Assembly (NCBI GenBank): GCA_963169045.1
Contig: CAUJDF010000026.1
Coordinates: 1-64,000, forward strand
Direction: 5' to 3'
Length of the DNA stretch: 64,000 bases
From: Myxococcota bacterium
GTDB taxonomy: Bacteria; Myxococcota_A; Bradymonadia; UBA7976; UBA1532
In this document: piece after piece, positions 3,904 through 11,493 of the stretch
Numbering within the stretch: the stretch's first letter is position 1
Layout: the number at the start of each line of letters is the position of its first letter
Program-made: the position numbers and the translations under genes
The notes under the pieces: generated by a model
Databases searched by the model: none
What the model was told of the DNA's origin: nothing
What the model saw: the letters and a program-made list of their open reading frames with translations, nothing else

Positions 3904-5031
3904 TCACAGGCCGAAGAACGAGCCCACGGCGGCGAAGAGCGCCTCGAGGGCCACGATCGAGAAGAGGATGGCCACGACCGCCGTCGTCGCCGCCGTGCCG
4001 ACGTCCTGCGGGCCGCCGCGCGTGTCGAGGCCGCGCTGGCAGGCGACGAGGCCGATGGTCAGGCCGAAGATGAGCGCCTTGAGCAGCCCGCGCACGACGT
4101 CCTCGAGGTCGAGCGAGGCGCGCAGCTCGCGCACGAACTCCACGGTGGGCACGTCGAGCTGGACGACGCCGACGACGTAGCCGCCGAAGATGCCGGTGAT
4201 GTTCGCGTAGGCGGTGAGCACCGGAACGATGAGCGCCAGCGACAGGACGCGCGGGAAGACGAGGTAGCGCACGGGGTCGAGGCCCATCACGCGCAGGCCG
4301 TCGACCTCGTGGGTGACCTGCATGGTGCCGAGCTCGGCGGCGATGGCCGATCCCGAGCGGCCGGCCACCATGAGCGCGGTCATGAAGGGTGCCAGGTGGC
4401 GCGTCACGGCCACGCCGGTGATGTCGGCGACGACCGAGCCGAGGCCGAGGCTCGTCAGGCGGCTCGAGAGCTGAAACGCGAGCATCAGGCCGGCGAGGAA
4501 GCTGGCGGCGCCGACCACGACCGCCGCCTGGACGCCGGCGCGCTCGCACAGCATCGGGACGTCGCGCCAGCGGACCGACGACGGATGGCGGAGGGCGCGG
4601 CCGGCGGCGACGACGAGCTCGCCCGCGAAGGCGGCGACGCGCTGCGCCTGCACGAGGAAGCGCCAGAGGGCGTCGCCGAGGCGCGCGACGAGCGGGGCCG
4701 GGCGGGGACGCTCCGCGACCTTCTCCGGGAACCGCCGCACGAGGCGCAGGACGCGCGCCACCTCCTCGCGGGCGCCGAAGAGGCGGTCGTCGCCGGGCGC
4801 CCGGGCGCCGAGGCGCTCGACGAGCAGCGCGAGGGCGCCGGGCTGGGCGGTGCGCACGCCGGACAGATCGCAGCGTGCGTTTGCGGCGCCGCCCAGCGCG
4901 CGCCACAGGGCCGGCGCCGTCTCCAGCGTCAGATCGCCGGACAGCCGGACGAGCGGGCGCCCGGCGTCGTCCTCGCCGCGCTCCACGGTCAGAAGCGGGG
5001 CGCCCGCGCGTTCGTCGACCTCGCGCGCCAT
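3904..5031 (-). CDS. mlaE: MlaE family ABC permease with N-terminal STAS domain
   Basis: A 375-residue protein. Residues about 10-85 look like a STAS domain (LVRLSGDLTLETAPALWRAL, then CDLSGVRTAQPGALALLVERL). Residues about 115-375 are the MlaE permease with several membrane helices, including VVVGAASFLAGLMLAFQLSS and the conserved GRSGSAIAAELGTMQVTHEVD(G)LRVMGLDP region. The fused STAS form is known in this family and replaces the separate MlaB subunit, which agrees with no mlaB gene being present. It is the first transporter gene of the block and starts 72 bases after the stop of the membrane repeat protein, so the protease cassette upstream may be cotranscribed. Confidence 0.9.
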   Translation of the reverse strand: MAREVDERAGAPLLTVERGEDDAGRPLVRLSGDLTLETAPALWRALGGAANARCDLSGVRTAQPGALALLVERLGARAPGDDRLFGAREEVARVLRLVRRFPEKVAERPRPAPLVARLGDALWRFLVQAQRVAAFAGELVVAAGRALRHPSSVRWRDVPMLCERAGVQAAVVVGAASFLAGLMLAFQLSSRLTSLGLGSVVADITGVAVTRHLAPFMTALMVAGRSGSAIAAELGTMQVTHEVDGLRVMGLDPVRYLVFPRVLSLALIVPVLTAYANITGIFGGYVVGVVQLDVPTVEFVRELRASLDLEDVVRGLLKALIFGLTIGLVACQRGLDTRGGPQDVGTAATTAVVAILFSIVALEALFAAVGSFFGL

Positions 5032-5103: not shown

Positions 5104-5874
5104 TCAGGGCGCGACGCGAACCGGCTGTACGAAGAGCTGCCAGGGGGCGCCGGCGGGGACGGCGCCGCCGGCGACGGCGTCGCGCACGGCGTCGGCGCCG
5201 GGGAGGTCGGCGGCGCGGGCGACGACGAAGGCGAGGCGCAGCTCGCCGGGCTCGAGGCGCAGGCCGTCGCCGAACGTGCCGGCCACGCGCATGCTGCCGT
5301 TGGCGACGCGCTCGACGGGGATCGTCCAGGGGGCGGCGCCGCCGTCGCGGACGACGAAGGCGGCGAGCGCGGCGTCGGGCGCGGCGTCGGCCGGACGCAG
5401 CACGAACTCGAAGGGCGCGCCGGGGGCCAGCGTGATCGCGGGGGCGGTGGGGACGGCCCCGCGCCACTCCTGGCTGCCCGTGCCGCGCGCCTCGAAGGTG
5501 TAGGCCGGCAGCGGATCGGCGCCCGGCCGCAGCAGGACGAACGCCAGGGCCGCAGCGAGGGCGAGCGGCACGGCGTACAGGGCGACGCGCGGGAACGTGA
5601 GCACCTTGCCGCGGGAGGCCGCGTCCCGCGGGCCGCCGACCGGCCCGTCCGTGGCTTGCGACGCCGCGTCCCGCGGACCGCCCACCGGCGCCGAGGCGGC
5701 CTGCGACGCCGCATCCCGCGGACCGCCCACCGGCGTCGAGGCGGCCTGCGACGCCGCATCCCGCGGACCGCCCACCGGCGTGGAGGACGACTGCGAGGCC
5801 GCGTCGCGCGGGCCGGGCGCGGACGGCGTCGCCGCCGCCTCCGCCTCTGCCCGTCGTCGCTCCTCCTCGTTCAC
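5104..5874 (-). CDS. Single-span membrane protein with 15-residue tandem repeats and a DUF4384-like outer domain
   Basis: A 256-residue protein not recognised as a named family. Residues 1-15 are charged. Residues 20-88 carry five copies of a 15-residue unit (GGPRDAASQAASTPV and variants), the last partial. One membrane helix follows at about 97-115. The rest (about 120-256) starts YTFEARG, contains LAPGAPFEFVLRPAD and ends LFVQPV. With the positive-inside rule the repeats would be cytoplasmic and the C-terminal domain periplasmic. By eye the outer domain resembles that of the anti-sigma factor at 23488-24228 (see findings). It is 21 bases downstream of the subtilase gene, in the same cassette. 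It may be an anti-sigma-like sensor that has lost its zinc finger; that is inference. Confidence 0.7.
   Translation of the reverse strand: MNEEERRRAEAEAAATPSAPGPRDAASQSSSTPVGGPRDAASQAASTPVGGPRDAASQAASAPVGGPRDAASQATDGPVGGPRDAASRGKVLTFPRVALYAVPLALAAALAFVLLRPGADPLPAYTFEARGTGSQEWRGAVPTAPAITLAPGAPFEFVLRPADAAPDAALAAFVVRDGGAAPWTIPVERVANGSMRVAGTFGDGLRLEPGELRLAFVVARAADLPGADAVRDAVAGGAVPAGAPWQLFVQPVRVAP
5611..5817 (-). repeat. 45-base in-frame tandem repeat (about 4.6 copies)
   Basis: The unit is 45 bases and encodes 15 residues ending in the conserved core GGPRDAASQ. Copies 2 and 3 differ at one residue (T to A), while the outer copies differ at four or five positions. The nearly identical middle copies point to recent duplication, so copy number may vary between strains. 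Confidence 0.85.
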
Positions 5875-5895
5875 GGCCGCCCTCCCCTCACCGGC

Positions 5896-7902
5896 TCAGT
5901 TGGCGCCGAACAGCGCGCACCCGGTCACTGCGGTGCGGTCGCCCGTCCAGGTGAAGAGGTCCATCGTCCCGTTCGTGATCACCTGCGTGCCCGGGCTGAA
6001 GTTGGGCACCTTGATGGAGAAGGCCTTGCCGGCCAGCATGTCCGGGCCGCCGAGCGTCTGCTGCGTGATGGTGAACGCGATCTGGAACGTCCCGCCGACG
6101 TTGTGCTTCCCGTTCAGCACGACGTTGGCCTTGATCCAGGTGTAGCCCGGCTTCAGCGCGATCTTGCCCTTGAAGTTGCCCTGGGAGTCGACGCCGCACT
6201 CGGGGCACGTCGTGGTGCCCGGCTGGGGAATGGCATAGGGCTGCACGCACTCATCGGCGAGGTTCGCTTCGGGCTGGAAGGGCTCGGTCTCGACGGTGGT
6301 GATCGGATCGCCGGCCGGGTAGACGAGGTCGAGCACGACGTCCCAGTCGGGCCCGGGGTCGTTGCCGGCGGGGCGCTCGGGGCACGGCACCAGCGCGTCG
6401 ATCGACGGCGGGCAGAGCGCTTCGCCCTTGGCGCAGGCGGCGCGCACGGCGCCGCAGACCGAAAGGCGCCGCTGCACGAGCGGCGGATCGACCAGGCCGA
6501 ACGCCGCGTTGCGCTCCAGCTCCGTGCCGCTCGAGTACACGAGCTCCATGACGTCGGCGGGCGCGAGGTCGGGCCGCAAGCCCCAGACGAGGGCCGCCGT
6601 GCCGCTCGCCGCCGCCGCGGCCATCGAGGTGCCGGTCAGCGCGTGCGTGCGGTGCTTGTCGTTGCCGTTCTCGAGGGCGTAGACCGCTGCCTGCATGGCG
6701 GGCGCCTGGAGGCGCGGCGCCGCGCCGGGGCGGGCGGTGCCGAGGATGCGGTCCGCGCCGTCGACGCCGCCCGCGGCGTGCACGAGCGGCCGGTACGTCG
6801 TGACGCTGGCGGGGCCGCACTCGGCGGGCTCCCGCTCCCAGGCCGCCGGGAACATGGGGCCGTCGAAGTCCGGGGCGTTGCGGTTGCCGGCGGCGGCGAC
6901 GAGCAGGGCGCCGTGGCAGGCGGCGTACCGGGCCACCTCGTGCACGAGGCGCGCGGGCAGACGCGTGGTCGTCGGGAGGCGGCCACCCCACTGCTCGTCC
7001 CAGCCGAAGCTCATGTTCATGACGAGCCGTTCGTCGGTGCCCTCGTCGAGGAACCGATCGATCGCGTCGTACATGGCGAGGCCGGCCTCGAGCAGCGAGC
7101 CGTAGTAGCCGCCGCGGACCTCGTCGAGCTCGTAGCGCGTGACCCGCGGGAGCGCGAGGTGGTTCGTGAGGCGCGCGGCGCATCCCGGGCCCGGGCCCTT
7201 GCGGCACGCGATGCTCTGGACGACGGCGCCGGTCGTCTGGGCGTGGTTGCTGCGGTCGCCCGCGGGCCCGTCCTGGTGGTTCTCGACGCCGGAGTCGATG
7301 ATCGCCACGCGGACATTCGCGAGGTCGTCGGGGATCATCCAGTTGTCGCCGAGGCCGAGCTGGGCCGCGTAACCGGCGGCCTTCTCCGCGTGCGCCGCCT
7401 CGGGATCGCCGGCGAGCGGCGCGACGACGTCGCAGTCGCGCTCGAGGCGCATCCAGCGCACGTTGGGCAGGGCGCTGACGTCCGCGCGGGCCGGCGACAC
7501 GCCCGGGGCCGGCACGAAGTCGTAGACGCAGTAGCGGACGAGCTCCCGGTCGGCGCTGTCGGCGAACGGACGGCTGAGCACCCAGCGGCCGCCGCGGGCG
7601 GGGCCCGGCGCCGCGCACGTGGCCCGCGGCGTGAGCACGTAGCCGACCCACTTGTTCGGCGGGCAGGCCTCGCGCATGTGAGCGGGCAGCTGCTCGAGCG
7701 TCTCGCGGCCGCCGGCGGCGGTGGTCCGCGGCAGCTCCTCCCAGCCGGCGTGCGCGGCCGCCGGCCCCCGGCGCTCACGCTCGGCCCGCTCATCCGACGG
7801 CTGCGCGAACGCGGCCGCGGGCGCCACCATCCCGGCCACCGCGGCCGCAAGCCGAACCACACCGATGCGTCCGAGGACGCCCCCCACGAGCCCTCTGCTC
7901 AT
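5896..7902 (-). CDS. Secreted subtilase (S8 family serine peptidase)
   Basis: A 668-residue protein with a signal peptide (to about residue 33, AAAFAQP). It has a long N-terminal region and then an S8 catalytic domain. The triad is visible: Asp203 in VAIIDSGV, His220 in SNHAQTTG, and Ser426 in GTSMAAAAASG, with oxyanion Asn340 in AAAGN. All residues needed for activity are present, though the His motif is unusual (typical: HGTHVAG). The last 120 residues form a separate domain starting near a CPEC motif, probably a beta-sandwich. The gene starts one base after the stop of the CHAT gene and ends 21 bases before the repeat membrane protein, so the three look like one functional unit. The substrate is unknown. 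Confidence 0.9.
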   Translation of the reverse strand: MSRGLVGGVLGRIGVVRLAAAVAGMVAPAAAFAQPSDERAERERRGPAAAHAGWEELPRTTAAGGRETLEQLPAHMREACPPNKWVGYVLTPRATCAAPGPARGGRWVLSRPFADSADRELVRYCVYDFVPAPGVSPARADVSALPNVRWMRLERDCDVVAPLAGDPEAAHAEKAAGYAAQLGLGDNWMIPDDLANVRVAIIDSGVENHQDGPAGDRSNHAQTTGAVVQSIACRKGPGPGCAARLTNHLALPRVTRYELDEVRGGYYGSLLEAGLAMYDAIDRFLDEGTDERLVMNMSFGWDEQWGGRLPTTTRLPARLVHEVARYAACHGALLVAAAGNRNAPDFDGPMFPAAWEREPAECGPASVTTYRPLVHAAGGVDGADRILGTARPGAAPRLQAPAMQAAVYALENGNDKHRTHALTGTSMAAAAASGTAALVWGLRPDLAPADVMELVYSSGTELERNAAFGLVDPPLVQRRLSVCGAVRAACAKGEALCPPSIDALVPCPERPAGNDPGPDWDVVLDLVYPAGDPITTVETEPFQPEANLADECVQPYAIPQPGTTTCPECGVDSQGNFKGKIALKPGYTWIKANVVLNGKHNVGGTFQIAFTITQQTLGGPDMLAGKAFSIKVPNFSPGTQVITNGTMDLFTWTGDRTAVTGCALFGAN

Positions 7903-7903
7903 C

Positions 7904-10723
7904 TCATCGCTCCAGGAAACGGAACGCGCGCCAGTCGGAGGCGGGCTCGGCCGCGGCGAGGGCGAGCTGCGCGCGCGCCAACGCCGCCGCCGGGTCCCAC
8001 GGACCGGGGCGTCGTTCGTCGTAGAGGTGCTGGCTCATCTTGCGAGCCAGCGAGTTCGTGACCGGACGCACGGCGGCGACCACCCCGCGCGCGCCGGCGA
8101 TCAGAAATGCCTGTGCCAGGCCGACGCTCTCGGCGGGGGCCACGGTGCCCGCTTCGCTGCGGGCCGTCTCGCACGCCGAGAGGACGACCCACGCCGGGCT
8201 CACCCCCAGCGTCAGGATGTCGCTCACCGTCAGCGAGCTGCCCTCGGCGAGCGGCAGCGCGCTGTCCCAGCCCTCGCGGCCGGCGAACACGCCGTGACCG
8301 GCGTAGTGCAGCAGACCGGCCTTCGGCAGCGCCTCGAGGAGGGCCTGGCGCGTCGCCTCGCGCGTGGTGAGCTGCGAGATCTCGGCGTAACGAGTACCGG
8401 TGAGCGCGCGGCGCACGTCGTTCGCCTCGTCACGCGCCGGCAGCAGGTCGCCCTTCGGATCGGCGACGAGCAGCGCGCGATCCGCGTCGATGGCGGTGCC
8501 CGACTCGCCCACGTCCAGCGACCAGGCGACCACGAAGTGCTCGACCAGCGGGCGTCCCTGCCACGGCATCGTGTGCAGGTCGACGTCCCGCAGTCGCCCG
8601 TAGGCCAACAGGCGCAGTCGGCGCGCACCGGCGAGGACATCAGCCAGCGGTTCGAAGAGCCACGCCGAAGCGGTCGCGTCCGGATCGGGCACGCCTGCGC
8701 ACGCCTTCGGGATGGTCCGGGCCGCGAGCGCCACCGGCGCCTCGGTCGCCTCGCGCACGCCGCGCGTCACGGCCGCGTCGGCAACGAGCGTCGCGGGCGC
8801 GGCGTGGCGCGTCGTCCCCGCCAACACGAACGCGTCGAGCGTACACGCCGGTGGCGCGCCAATGCGCTTCGCGACGACACCGCGGGTCGTCGCCCCGAAG
8901 ACGATCCAACCCGAATCCCCGGGGAACCAGATCAGGATCGCCTCGCCTTCGGCGGGCGGCCGCAGCGGGGCGTCCACCTCGCCGGCTCCGCCGAGGACCG
9001 CCACCGCCCGATCGAGGGCAGCGCGCATCCGGCGCAGCCGCTCTGCGCGCTCGGTGGCGGCCGCCTCGCGCTCGCGGCCTGTCAGGGCCCAGGCGGTGGC
9101 CCCCTCCGCCTCCACCGCGTCTCGCTCGCGACGGTACTCGGCGTATGCCGTCTCCCATGCCTGCCGCCGCGCGGCCGAGAGGCGGGCGACGCGGTCGGCC
9201 CCGCCGCCCGGGAGCGCGCGACGGCGCGCGCGACGCGCCACGGCCATCGCCTCTTCGGCGCGGCCGACATCGACGAGCAGGTCGACGAGGCGGCGGGCAC
9301 TCGCCTCGCGGTCGGCGAGGAAGTGGACGCGTCCTTCGTCCACGGGCACGAGCATGCTCTCGTCCGAGAGCTGCGCCTCGGCGGTCCGATACGCGGCGAG
9401 GGCCCCTTCCCGATCCCCGAGCGCCTCGAGCGCGCGGCCGCGGCCCACCTCGGCGCGCCAGCGCAGCTCGGCCGCGGCGGTCGCCTCGGCGAGCCTGCCG
9501 AGATCTTCGTAGCGGGCGCGCGCCTCTTCGAACTTCCCCGCGGCGAACGACAGGCGGGCCTCGATCGCCAGTCGCCACGCCAGGATCTCGGGGGCGTCCG
9601 GCAGCGCCGCCGCCTCGGCCAGCCGCCGCTGGGCATCGTCGAACCGGCCCGCCTGCACTGCGTCCAGCGCGAGGTTCACGAGCGCGTTCGCCACACGAAG
9701 CGGCCGCCCGGGGCACTGGCCGCGGTAGAGGCCGAGGGACTCGGCCAGCCACTCGCCCGGGCGCGCCTCTGCCAGCGCGTCGAACGTCCGCTCTCGCTCG
9801 AGCAGCGCGATCCAGGCTCGGTTGTCGAGGATGGCCGCCTGGTCACATTTCGAACGCTCGGCCATGCCTGCGTGAAGCGCCGCGAACGCCCGTTCGGCTT
9901 CGCGGGCCTGCCCCATGCGCAGCCGCGTCGTCGCCATCTCGACGTCGACGTTCCAGGCCAGCGGCATCTCGAGGCGCTCGGCACTGCTCCGTGCGCGCTC
10001 GAAGAACTCCAGCGCCGCCCGGAAGTCGCCGGCGTCGCGTGCGAGAACAGCCTCGTGGAAGATGCGGCGCGCTTCCGCCTCGTGCCAGGTGGTGTCGTAC
10101 GCATCGAGCCCGGCGAGGGCCGCGTGCGCCTCGGCGAAGTCACGCCGCTCGATTGCCGTGAAGGCCTGCATGAGAGCGCTGCGCACGCCGCCCGACACGT
10201 GCCCGGCGCGGAACTGCGCCGCCGACGCCTCGCGGAACAACCCGACCGCCTTCGCCAGCTCGCCCGCCTTGCGCGCCTCGCGCGCCAGCTTGTCGAGCGC
10301 CGGACCGCGGGTCGCCGCCTCCCCGGTCGCCTTCTGGAGCGCCGCCGCGTCCATCGCGGCGACCGGGTCGGGCCGGGGCGGCGCCACCGCGATGCGCCAC
10401 GTCCCGCGCGCGCCGTTGCCGCGCGCCGTCAGCCGCACCTCGGTCGCGCCCGCCTCGACGCGGACGCCGAGCAGCCGGCCGCCGCCCACGTCGCGCGCGG
10501 GCCCCGCGGTTCCGCCGGCGACGCTCAGCGTGTCGGCCCAGGGGGCGTCGACCCAGAGGCGCATCAGCGCGTCCTCCCCGAGCACGCACACGGGCCCGGC
10601 GTCGACCGCGGCGCAGCCGGCGAAGCGGACGACGGGCGCCCGCTCGACCTCGGGCGGGGGTGGGGCGCCGCAGCCACCGAGCGCGAGGAGCACGGCCGCG
10701 ACGCGCACGAAGAGGCGAGACAT
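7904..10723 (-). CDS. Lipoprotein with TPR repeats and C-terminal CHAT protease domain
   Basis: A 939-residue protein. The signal peptide with lipobox (LLALGGC, Cys18) predicts an exported, lipid-anchored protein. Residues about 110-450 are Ala-rich helical repeats of TPR type (for example AGDFRAALEFFERAR, AGKFEEARARYEDL). A helical linker leads to the CHAT domain (about 620-939), a clan CD cysteine peptidase related to caspases. The catalytic dyad is present: His about 810 in HYAGHGVF and Cys about 851 in LSACET, followed by the conserved AQAFLIAGARGVVA. The start at 10723 gives the signal peptide; an upstream in-frame ATG would put 12 charged residues before it. It is the first gene of the CHAT/subtilase/repeat-protein cassette and diverges from miaE. 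Confidence 0.9.
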   Translation of the reverse strand: MSRLFVRVAAVLLALGGCGAPPPPEVERAPVVRFAGCAAVDAGPVCVLGEDALMRLWVDAPWADTLSVAGGTAGPARDVGGGRLLGVRVEAGATEVRLTARGNGARGTWRIAVAPPRPDPVAAMDAAALQKATGEAATRGPALDKLAREARKAGELAKAVGLFREASAAQFRAGHVSGGVRSALMQAFTAIERRDFAEAHAALAGLDAYDTTWHEAEARRIFHEAVLARDAGDFRAALEFFERARSSAERLEMPLAWNVDVEMATTRLRMGQAREAERAFAALHAGMAERSKCDQAAILDNRAWIALLERERTFDALAEARPGEWLAESLGLYRGQCPGRPLRVANALVNLALDAVQAGRFDDAQRRLAEAAALPDAPEILAWRLAIEARLSFAAGKFEEARARYEDLGRLAEATAAAELRWRAEVGRGRALEALGDREGALAAYRTAEAQLSDESMLVPVDEGRVHFLADREASARRLVDLLVDVGRAEEAMAVARRARRRALPGGGADRVARLSAARRQAWETAYAEYRRERDAVEAEGATAWALTGREREAAATERAERLRRMRAALDRAVAVLGGAGEVDAPLRPPAEGEAILIWFPGDSGWIVFGATTRGVVAKRIGAPPACTLDAFVLAGTTRHAAPATLVADAAVTRGVREATEAPVALAARTIPKACAGVPDPDATASAWLFEPLADVLAGARRLRLLAYGRLRDVDLHTMPWQGRPLVEHFVVAWSLDVGESGTAIDADRALLVADPKGDLLPARDEANDVRRALTGTRYAEISQLTTREATRQALLEALPKAGLLHYAGHGVFAGREGWDSALPLAEGSSLTVSDILTLGVSPAWVVLSACETARSEAGTVAPAESVGLAQAFLIAGARGVVAAVRPVTNSLARKMSQHLYDERRPGPWDPAAALARAQLALAAAEPASDWRAFRFLER

Positions 10724-10917: not shown

Positions 10918-11493
10918 ATGCTCCGTCTTCGTTACGCCACACCGCCGGCCTGGACGACGATCGCCACGGGTGACCTCGACGCCTTCCTGCGCGACCACGC
11001 CGCCAACGAGCGCAAGGTGTCTCACAGCGCGCTGACGCTGGCCGTGCAGCACTACGCGCGATCCGAGCTCGTGGCCGCGCTGATCGAGGTCGCGCAGGAG
11101 GAGCTCGAGCACTTCCGCCAGGTCTTCGAGGCGCTGCGGGCGCGCGGGGGGCACCTCGGCCCCGACATGCCCGATCCGTACACGGGCGCGCTGCACCGGC
11201 AGGTGAAGCACCCGGAGGTCGACACGTACCTCCTGCGCCGCCTCGTGCTGTTCGCGGTGATCGAGGCGCGGGGCCACGAGCGGTTCGCGATGCTGACCGA
11301 GGCGCTCGATCCCGGACCGCTGAAGCAGCTGTACGCCGAGCTGACGCGCTCTGAGGCGCGCCACCACGCGCTCTACCTGCGCCTCGCCCGGCAGACGTTC
11401 GGCGAGGCGGCGGCGCGCGCGTGCCTCGACTGGCTGCTCGACGTCGAGGCCGAGGTGATCCGCGGCCTGCCGCTGCGGGCCGCGCTGCATTGA
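10918..11493 (+). CDS. miaE: tRNA-(ms2io6A)-hydroxylase
   Basis: A 191-residue diiron enzyme of normal MiaE length. It hydroxylates the isopentenyl side chain of ms2i6A at tRNA position 37. The ferritin-like four-helix metal site is visible: Glu in HYARSELVAALIE, the EELEHFRQVF helix, the IEARGHERF helix and the SEARHHALYL helix. The segment GPDMPDPYTGALHRQVKHP between helices is also typical. The stop overlaps the start of the PIG-L gene (TTGA at 11490-11493), so it heads a three-gene overlapping operon with two sugar-related genes. That association is unusual for a tRNA modification gene. Confidence 0.9.
   Translation: MLRLRYATPPAWTTIATGDLDAFLRDHAANERKVSHSALTLAVQHYARSELVAALIEVAQEELEHFRQVFEALRARGGHLGPDMPDPYTGALHRQVKHPEVDTYLLRRLVLFAVIEARGHERFAMLTEALDPGPLKQLYAELTRSEARHHALYLRLARQTFGEAAARACLDWLLDVEAEVIRGLPLRAALH

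Follow-up and report, generated by a model that had tools for sequence, protein, structure and literature searches.

An anti-sigma-like membrane protein, an exported TPR-CHAT protease and a subtilase form a putative envelope signaling module in Myxococcota and Acidobacteriota

Proteases with a CHAT domain whose role is known are mainly cytoplasmic defense effectors. Why, then, does a Myxococcota bacterium encode such a protease with an export signal, in one cassette with an exported subtilase and a membrane protein? The window analyzed here comprises 64,000 nt at one end of contig C26 of a 9.0 Mb genome assembled in 109 contigs; its sequence relatives are Myxococcota. On the minus strand it carries a gene for a tetratricopeptide repeat (TPR)-CHAT lipoprotein (P0001, 10723-7904), followed by genes for a subtilase (P0002, 7902-5896) and for a single-span membrane protein (P0003, 5874-5104), here called protein X. 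All three frames are open and the gaps between them are 1 and 21 bases, as described in an earlier sequence-only reading, which had proposed a cascade between the proteases or from the subtilase to the membrane protein. A proteolytic link among these proteins is plausible. Very probably, the cassette belongs to a conserved gene module whose fourth member is an extracytoplasmic function (ECF) sigma factor.

Results

Conservation of the gene module

Seed subtilases were picked by similarity to P0002 alone, blind to their neighbors, and the neighborhoods were read afterwards; gene starts were assigned mechanically throughout. At most loci of subtilase relatives, genes for a CHAT protein and for a P0003-like protein lay nearby. 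The gene directly before the P0003-like gene encoded a protein of about 210 amino acids with sigma regions 2 and 4, identified as an ECF sigma factor by Sigma70_r2 in 12/13 and region 4 in 7/13 sequences. The commonest arrangement of the full set was a single operon in the order ECF>X>CHAT>S8, S8 being the subtilase gene. A subtilase-profile scan of the genome collection revealed this order in the cultured strain CA032A of Pyxidicoccus caerfyrddinensis (L089) as well as in two assemblies of Acidobacteriota (L092, L093).

The subtilase subfamily was found in 29 of the 379 Myxococcota genomes surveyed. A CHAT gene was adjacent at 39 of its 48 Myxococcota loci and all four genes were present at 28, while a further 11 had CHAT and not both ECF and X detected. 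One of these 11 (L233) contained a divergent sigma factor and an X protein with a zinc motif, recognized by eye, and is one more full set; the sensitivity of the ECF and X models is thus limited, and many relatives are fragmented assemblies. Within the Myxococcaceae, the family of Pyxidicoccus, the subfamily occurred in 5/96 genomes and all five loci were ECF>X>CHAT>S8 operons. Four of 396 Acidobacteriota genomes contained six loci, all with CHAT and four with all genes, one locus being cut by a contig end; including L093, the counts were 7/7 and 5/7. In total, 60 loci from two phyla (48 + 5 + 6 + L093) were obtained, with CHAT adjacent at 51/60 and CHAT, X and ECF together at 39/60. The distribution of the module is sparse but recurrent. 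Treating the genes as one functional unit, as the earlier reading did, invited the check whether they are rare neighbors elsewhere; with CHAT adjoining the subfamily at 51 of 60 loci, the unit was upheld.

Related arrangements were also observed. At L230:7539-11529, ECF and X are followed by several consecutive subtilase-like stretches, and no CHAT was detected. In the family genomes G012 and G008 (L250-L253, L255), CHAT genes occur with more distant subtilases, again with ECF and mostly X nearby; hence, one genome can hold several parallel copies of the module. Upstream of the ECF genes of L031 and L032, hexamers resembling TTTACA and TAGGGT or TACCGT were seen by eye, which look like housekeeping rather than ECF promoters.

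Protein X resembles membrane anti-sigma factors

P0003 (256 amino acids, 5104-5874, minus strand) matched no Pfam family. It has one hydrophobic span at residues 97-115 (5530-5586, minus strand; mean Kyte-Doolittle hydropathy 2.5) and a periplasmic immunoglobulin (Ig)-like domain. Its cytoplasmic side bears 15-residue repeats, GGPRDAASQAASTPV, encoded by a 45-bp minisatellite (5618-5815, minus strand; 4.4 copies, 88% match, Tandem Repeats Finder). The single span and the cytoplasmic repeats noted earlier were thus confirmed; the repeats do not define X, since its relatives carry an anti-sigma-type domain at that place.

Class I anti-sigma domains (ASD) have Hx3Cx2C as their zinc signature. This motif was found in five X proteins (L038, L042, L043, L045, L230), and a sixth, from L233, contained HADACSIC; some X proteins matched zf-HC2. 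Many others kept the pattern W..L..G.L...E and PLD with the zinc ligands gone. Zinc and non-zinc members of class I anti-sigma domains are intermixed inside groups (PMC7406223). In most loci the ATG of X overlaps the stop codon of the sigma factor gene as ATGA. In the model of the Pyxidicoccus X protein, five helices at the N-terminus (low to moderate confidence) are followed by a span at 114-130 and by an Ig-like domain predicted with confidence. The X relatives thus have the class I layout, with an N-terminal helical domain before one span, Hx3Cx2C in part of them and an adjacent ECF gene. Because of the Hx3Cx2C members, the ATGA overlap and the order of helices, span and Ig-like domain, X is regarded as a membrane anti-sigma-like protein by context, motif and layout, with predicted binding of the sigma factor.

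X and CHAT are fused in three genomes

In three large Myxococcota genomes, X and CHAT were encoded in one open frame of 1051-1111 amino acids (L206:1459-4617, plus strand; L207:13197-16532, minus strand; L208:1539-4694, plus strand). The fused proteins consist of the N-terminal domain, basic residues, one span, the X periplasmic domain and, at the C-terminus, TPR-CHAT. The positive-inside rule places the CHAT part outside the cytoplasm. An assembly error is unlikely, as the assembly of one of the three genomes (G340) consists of two contigs. Among the single observations, this fusion speaks most strongly for joint action of X and CHAT, and it points to a link of CHAT rather than of the subtilase with X. 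A further candidate in the window's own genome (L044) was rejected, its N-terminal extension being an over-long open reading frame call and not X.

At two of these loci (L208:4854-7781, plus strand; L207:10109-13036, minus strand), the fusion gene and the subtilase gene are separated by a gene for an exported protein of 975 amino acids, whose C-terminus has a hydrophobic stretch and an Arg-rich tail resembling a MYXO-CTERM sorting signal. This protein is a possible substrate of the proteases.

Clustering and co-divergence of the genes

In the window's own genome, the zone within 6 kb of a CHAT gene makes up 2.1% of the sequence. Of the ECF genes of this family, 9/12 fell into this zone (binomial p 1.7e-13), as did 7/14 subtilases (binomial p 5.6e-9). 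Furthermore, the distance matrices of the paralogues correlated in every pairing of the four genes (Mantel r 0.46 to 0.86, p≤4e-4), with the highest value for CHAT-S8 (0.86), followed by X-CHAT with 0.71 and ECF-X with 0.61. Together with the fusion, this co-divergence supports a link between CHAT and X.

Both proteases are exported and catalytically intact

P0001 (939 amino acids, 7904-10723, minus strand) is a predicted lipoprotein with the lipobox LGGC18. Its CHAT domain (residues 687-926; 7946-8665, minus strand) matched PF12770 with 108.6 bits at a cut-off of 24 and contains His810 within LHYAGHG and Cys851 within LSACET, which places P0001 among the CHAT peptidases. Both catalytic residues were invariant in 62/62 aligned sequences; 48/62 had a lipobox-like motif. 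Taken singly, P0001 gave weak TPR matches, and the family profile matched solved TPR proteins.

P0002 (668 amino acids, 5896-7902, minus strand) has a Sec-type signal peptide and matched Peptidase_S8 (PF00082) with 46.4 bits at a cut-off of 21.8. The triad Asp203/His220/Ser426, accompanied by Asn340, assigns it to peptidase family S8, and the triad was kept in every relative covering that region; a lipobox-like motif was present in 32/63 subtilase sequences. For both enzymes, the export signals and active-site residues reported earlier were therefore verified, and as far as the alignments tell, the catalytic sites are intact throughout the family and both proteases are exported.

The subtilase has two domains of its own. 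The N-terminal one (about residues 60-160) was modeled at a predicted local distance difference test (pLDDT) value near 90. The mean pLDDT of the full model was 53, too poor overall for a search with the subtilase fold. The C-terminal PQP..CPxC domain (PQPxxxxCxxC; 5899-6246, minus strand) marks the subfamily: residues P559, Q560, P561, C566 and C569 were invariant in 15/15 sequences, and nearly all members have the domain. Standalone copies of it were not found at normal thresholds. Small exported CxxC proteins are encoded beside two ECF-X-CHAT sets without subtilase (L043:7640-8254, minus strand; L046 near 6938, minus strand). They resemble the C-terminal domain weakly (E 0.006-0.007, unfiltered search of a small set of neighbors), as if this domain might travel alone.

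The window copy apparently lacks the sigma arm

A search at E 1e-5 detected no ECF sigma factor of the module's family on contig C26. Against the family N-domain model, the N-terminus of the window's X scored -0.7 bits, and its relatives reached 0.1 to 67 bits in leave-one-out comparisons (35/36 above 4 bits). It thus lacks a recognizable class I N-terminal sigma-binding domain and has the minisatellite repeats there instead. By these scores, X of the window is probably an eroded anti-sigma factor that has presumably lost its sigma-binding domain. The loss of the sigma factor gene coincides with that of the presumed binding domain, as expected if the sigma arm had been shed. The rest of the cassette is probably still used, since both proteases are intact. 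Judged from its genes, and unless it is served by a paralogous sigma factor encoded elsewhere, such as the ECF at C8:65931, the window copy can only work as a pair of periplasmic proteases, CHAT and subtilase, for which X would be the membrane partner or a substrate.

Discussion

Proposed mechanism

The gene set and its order, the intact active sites, the topology, the X-CHAT fusion and the co-divergence led us to a proposal that goes on to predict sigma factor binding by X, the cutting of X by CHAT, the sequence of steps and the signal. X would hold the ECF sigma factor at the membrane, and TPR-CHAT would sense an envelope or extracellular signal. CHAT would then cut X on its periplasmic face, a site-1 step, and further proteolysis of X would free the sigma factor. 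The subtilase would be a companion protease, either activated by CHAT or secreted as output. We consider the chances about even that the cassette of the window is a diverged version of a four-gene envelope signaling module (ECF sigma factor, X, periplasmic TPR-CHAT and exported subtilase) working in this way; for the cleavage of X by CHAT taken separately, they appear slightly below even. The protease cascade is not supported in the form first suggested: X is an anti-sigma-like regulator with an ECF sigma factor as its usual partner, hence the expected output is transcription and not only a protease cascade.

Several observations weigh against this proposal. CHAT was not seen at 9/48 Myxococcota subfamily loci, several of them at contig ends, and S8 is sometimes missing beside ECF-X-CHAT (L043, L046); hence, the four genes can occur apart. 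The loci that seeded the ECF and X models came from the window's family, while the other Myxococcota loci and those of Acidobacteriota are seed-independent. Only a few X proteins have an N-domain that matches an anti-sigma Pfam family, and with the X model Foldseek returned Ig-like matches alone (E about 0.001 or worse) and none to anti-sigma structures. Upstream of 30 transcription units, no shared ECF-type promoter dyad was found (the best dyad occurred in 5, shuffles reached 4-5), so autoregulation by the ECF sigma factor is no more than a possibility. Finally, the assembly from which the loss of the window's sigma arm was deduced consists of 109 contigs.

Alternatively, ECF and X may be an ordinary switch which controls CHAT and the subtilase as secreted effectors in predation, competition or defense, with neither protease acting on X. 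ECF operons often encode their own output, ECF and X precede CHAT and S8 in the commonest gene order, and the proteases bear lipoprotein or Sec signals. However, the single X-CHAT chain makes CHAT part of the switch and not just its output, and no shared promoter was seen where the genes are arranged in split units. We regard such a regulated arsenal as improbable, though still a serious candidate.

Rather unlikely, in our view, is a cascade of two proteases in which CHAT activates a subtilase zymogen that then cuts X or other targets. The correlation of CHAT-S8 distances, the strongest among the paralogues (r 0.86), would agree with it, and so would the persistence of the CHAT-S8 pair at the 11 loci where ECF and X were not both found and likewise in the window. 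The well-modeled extra N-terminal domain of the subtilase could be a propeptide, but its removal could equally be autocatalytic, and ECF-X-CHAT occurs without a subtilase at L043 and L046.

The window copy itself could be a decaying relic whose remaining genes drift after the loss of the sigma factor, as the missing sigma factor gene and the minisatellite in place of the X N-terminus might suggest. Three open frames, two intact active sites and gaps that are still 1 and 21 bases, together with the retention of CHAT-S8 without detected ECF at other loci, make this very unlikely. Chance neighborhood without shared function is refuted for practical purposes by the 51/60 loci with adjacent CHAT, the binomial tests in the own genome and the X-CHAT fusion.

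In its furthest form, the proposal of CHAT cleavage makes CHAT the protease that cuts an anti-sigma factor first, on the periplasmic side. The module would then be an envelope counterpart, and possibly an evolutionary relative, of Craspase, with many paralogous sets at work side by side within one cell, some of which, including that of the window, became pure CHAT-subtilase pairs after shedding the sigma arm. We put this forward tentatively and consider it doubtful as a whole.

Relation to known systems

In Craspase/DiCASP of type III-E CRISPR, the TPR-CHAT protease Csx29 cuts Csx30 and thereby lifts the inhibition of CASP-sigma by Csx30 (PMC10028731). This is the closest known system, sharing with the module a TPR-CHAT protease and the logic of sigma factor control, the latter as part of the proposed mechanism. 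In contrast to Craspase, the module has a CHAT protease that is exported or tethered to the membrane, an X protein with a single membrane span, and a second protease. Membership in CRISPR/Craspase was rejected: P0001 scored 20.6 bits against Csx29, far below the cut-off of 300, and X had no NCBIfam match at E 0.01 and thus no match to a Csx30-like family.

Regulated intramembrane proteolysis of the DegS-RseA-RpoE and RsiW type has been summarized (PMC10028731). As proposed for the module, a membrane anti-sigma factor there restrains an ECF sigma factor and an extracytoplasmic protease cuts first. DegS is a trypsin-fold serine protease, whereas the first protease of the module would be a clan CD CHAT enzyme encoded in the same operon and even fused to the anti-sigma factor. 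CalpL-CalpT-CalpS of type III CRISPR comprises a cytoplasmic Lon-SAVED protease triggered by cyclic oligoadenylate (PMC11417357). It likewise unites protease, anti-sigma factor and ECF sigma factor, but its protease is a cytoplasmic Lon-SAVED enzyme and that of the module an exported CHAT enzyme. SAVED-CHAT feeds a prokaryotic caspase cascade. The module would resemble it in a CHAT protease feeding a second protease; it differs in having exported proteins, a subtilase as second protease and no SAVED domain, none being found in P0001 with Pfam. SAVED-CHAT is named in PMC11417357.

In EACC2/caspase systems, a caspase-superfamily peptidase occurs with ECF sigma factor and TPR genes, built on EACC2/TRADD-N proteins (PMC8195603). 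The module shares the peptidase of this superfamily beside ECF and TPR; however, no EACC2/TRADD-N proteins were found in it, and CHAT and subtilisin are not mentioned in PMC8195603. Mycosins, the subtilases of type VII secretion, gave the best matches of the subtilase in NCBIfam (TIGR03921) and, as solved structures, in the PDB with the subtilase profile, but P0002 scored 62.7 bits at a family cut-off of 278.75 and its gene context is different. Comparison with anti-phage defense systems in PADLOC yielded weak matches only (BovA E 0.002, subtilase E 7e-5).

No description of the four-gene operon (CHAT with ECF, anti-sigma factor or subtilase) was found in the literature searched, where only CRISPR-related papers were relevant; descriptions of ECF groups may mention CHAT neighbors. 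The conserved operon puts TPR-CHAT outside the cytoplasm in two phyla, next to a membrane anti-sigma-like protein or in one chain with it. If the proposal holds, the module would parallel the Craspase switch outside CRISPR and would bring a new kind of first cutter to envelope signaling. It also offers a functional hypothesis for a large set of CHAT genes in myxobacteria, of which the window's genome has 15, and its presence in cultured P. caerfyrddinensis provides an organism in which the question can be tested.

Genes flanking the cassette

Upstream of the cassette, a MiaE gene (10918-11493) is oriented divergently. Downstream lie genes for MlaE (5031-3904) and an ABC ATPase (3890-3141). The MlaE protein (3904-5031, minus strand) begins 72 bases past X, and a STAS-like domain precedes its permease (STAS_2, E 1e-5, just below the cut-off).

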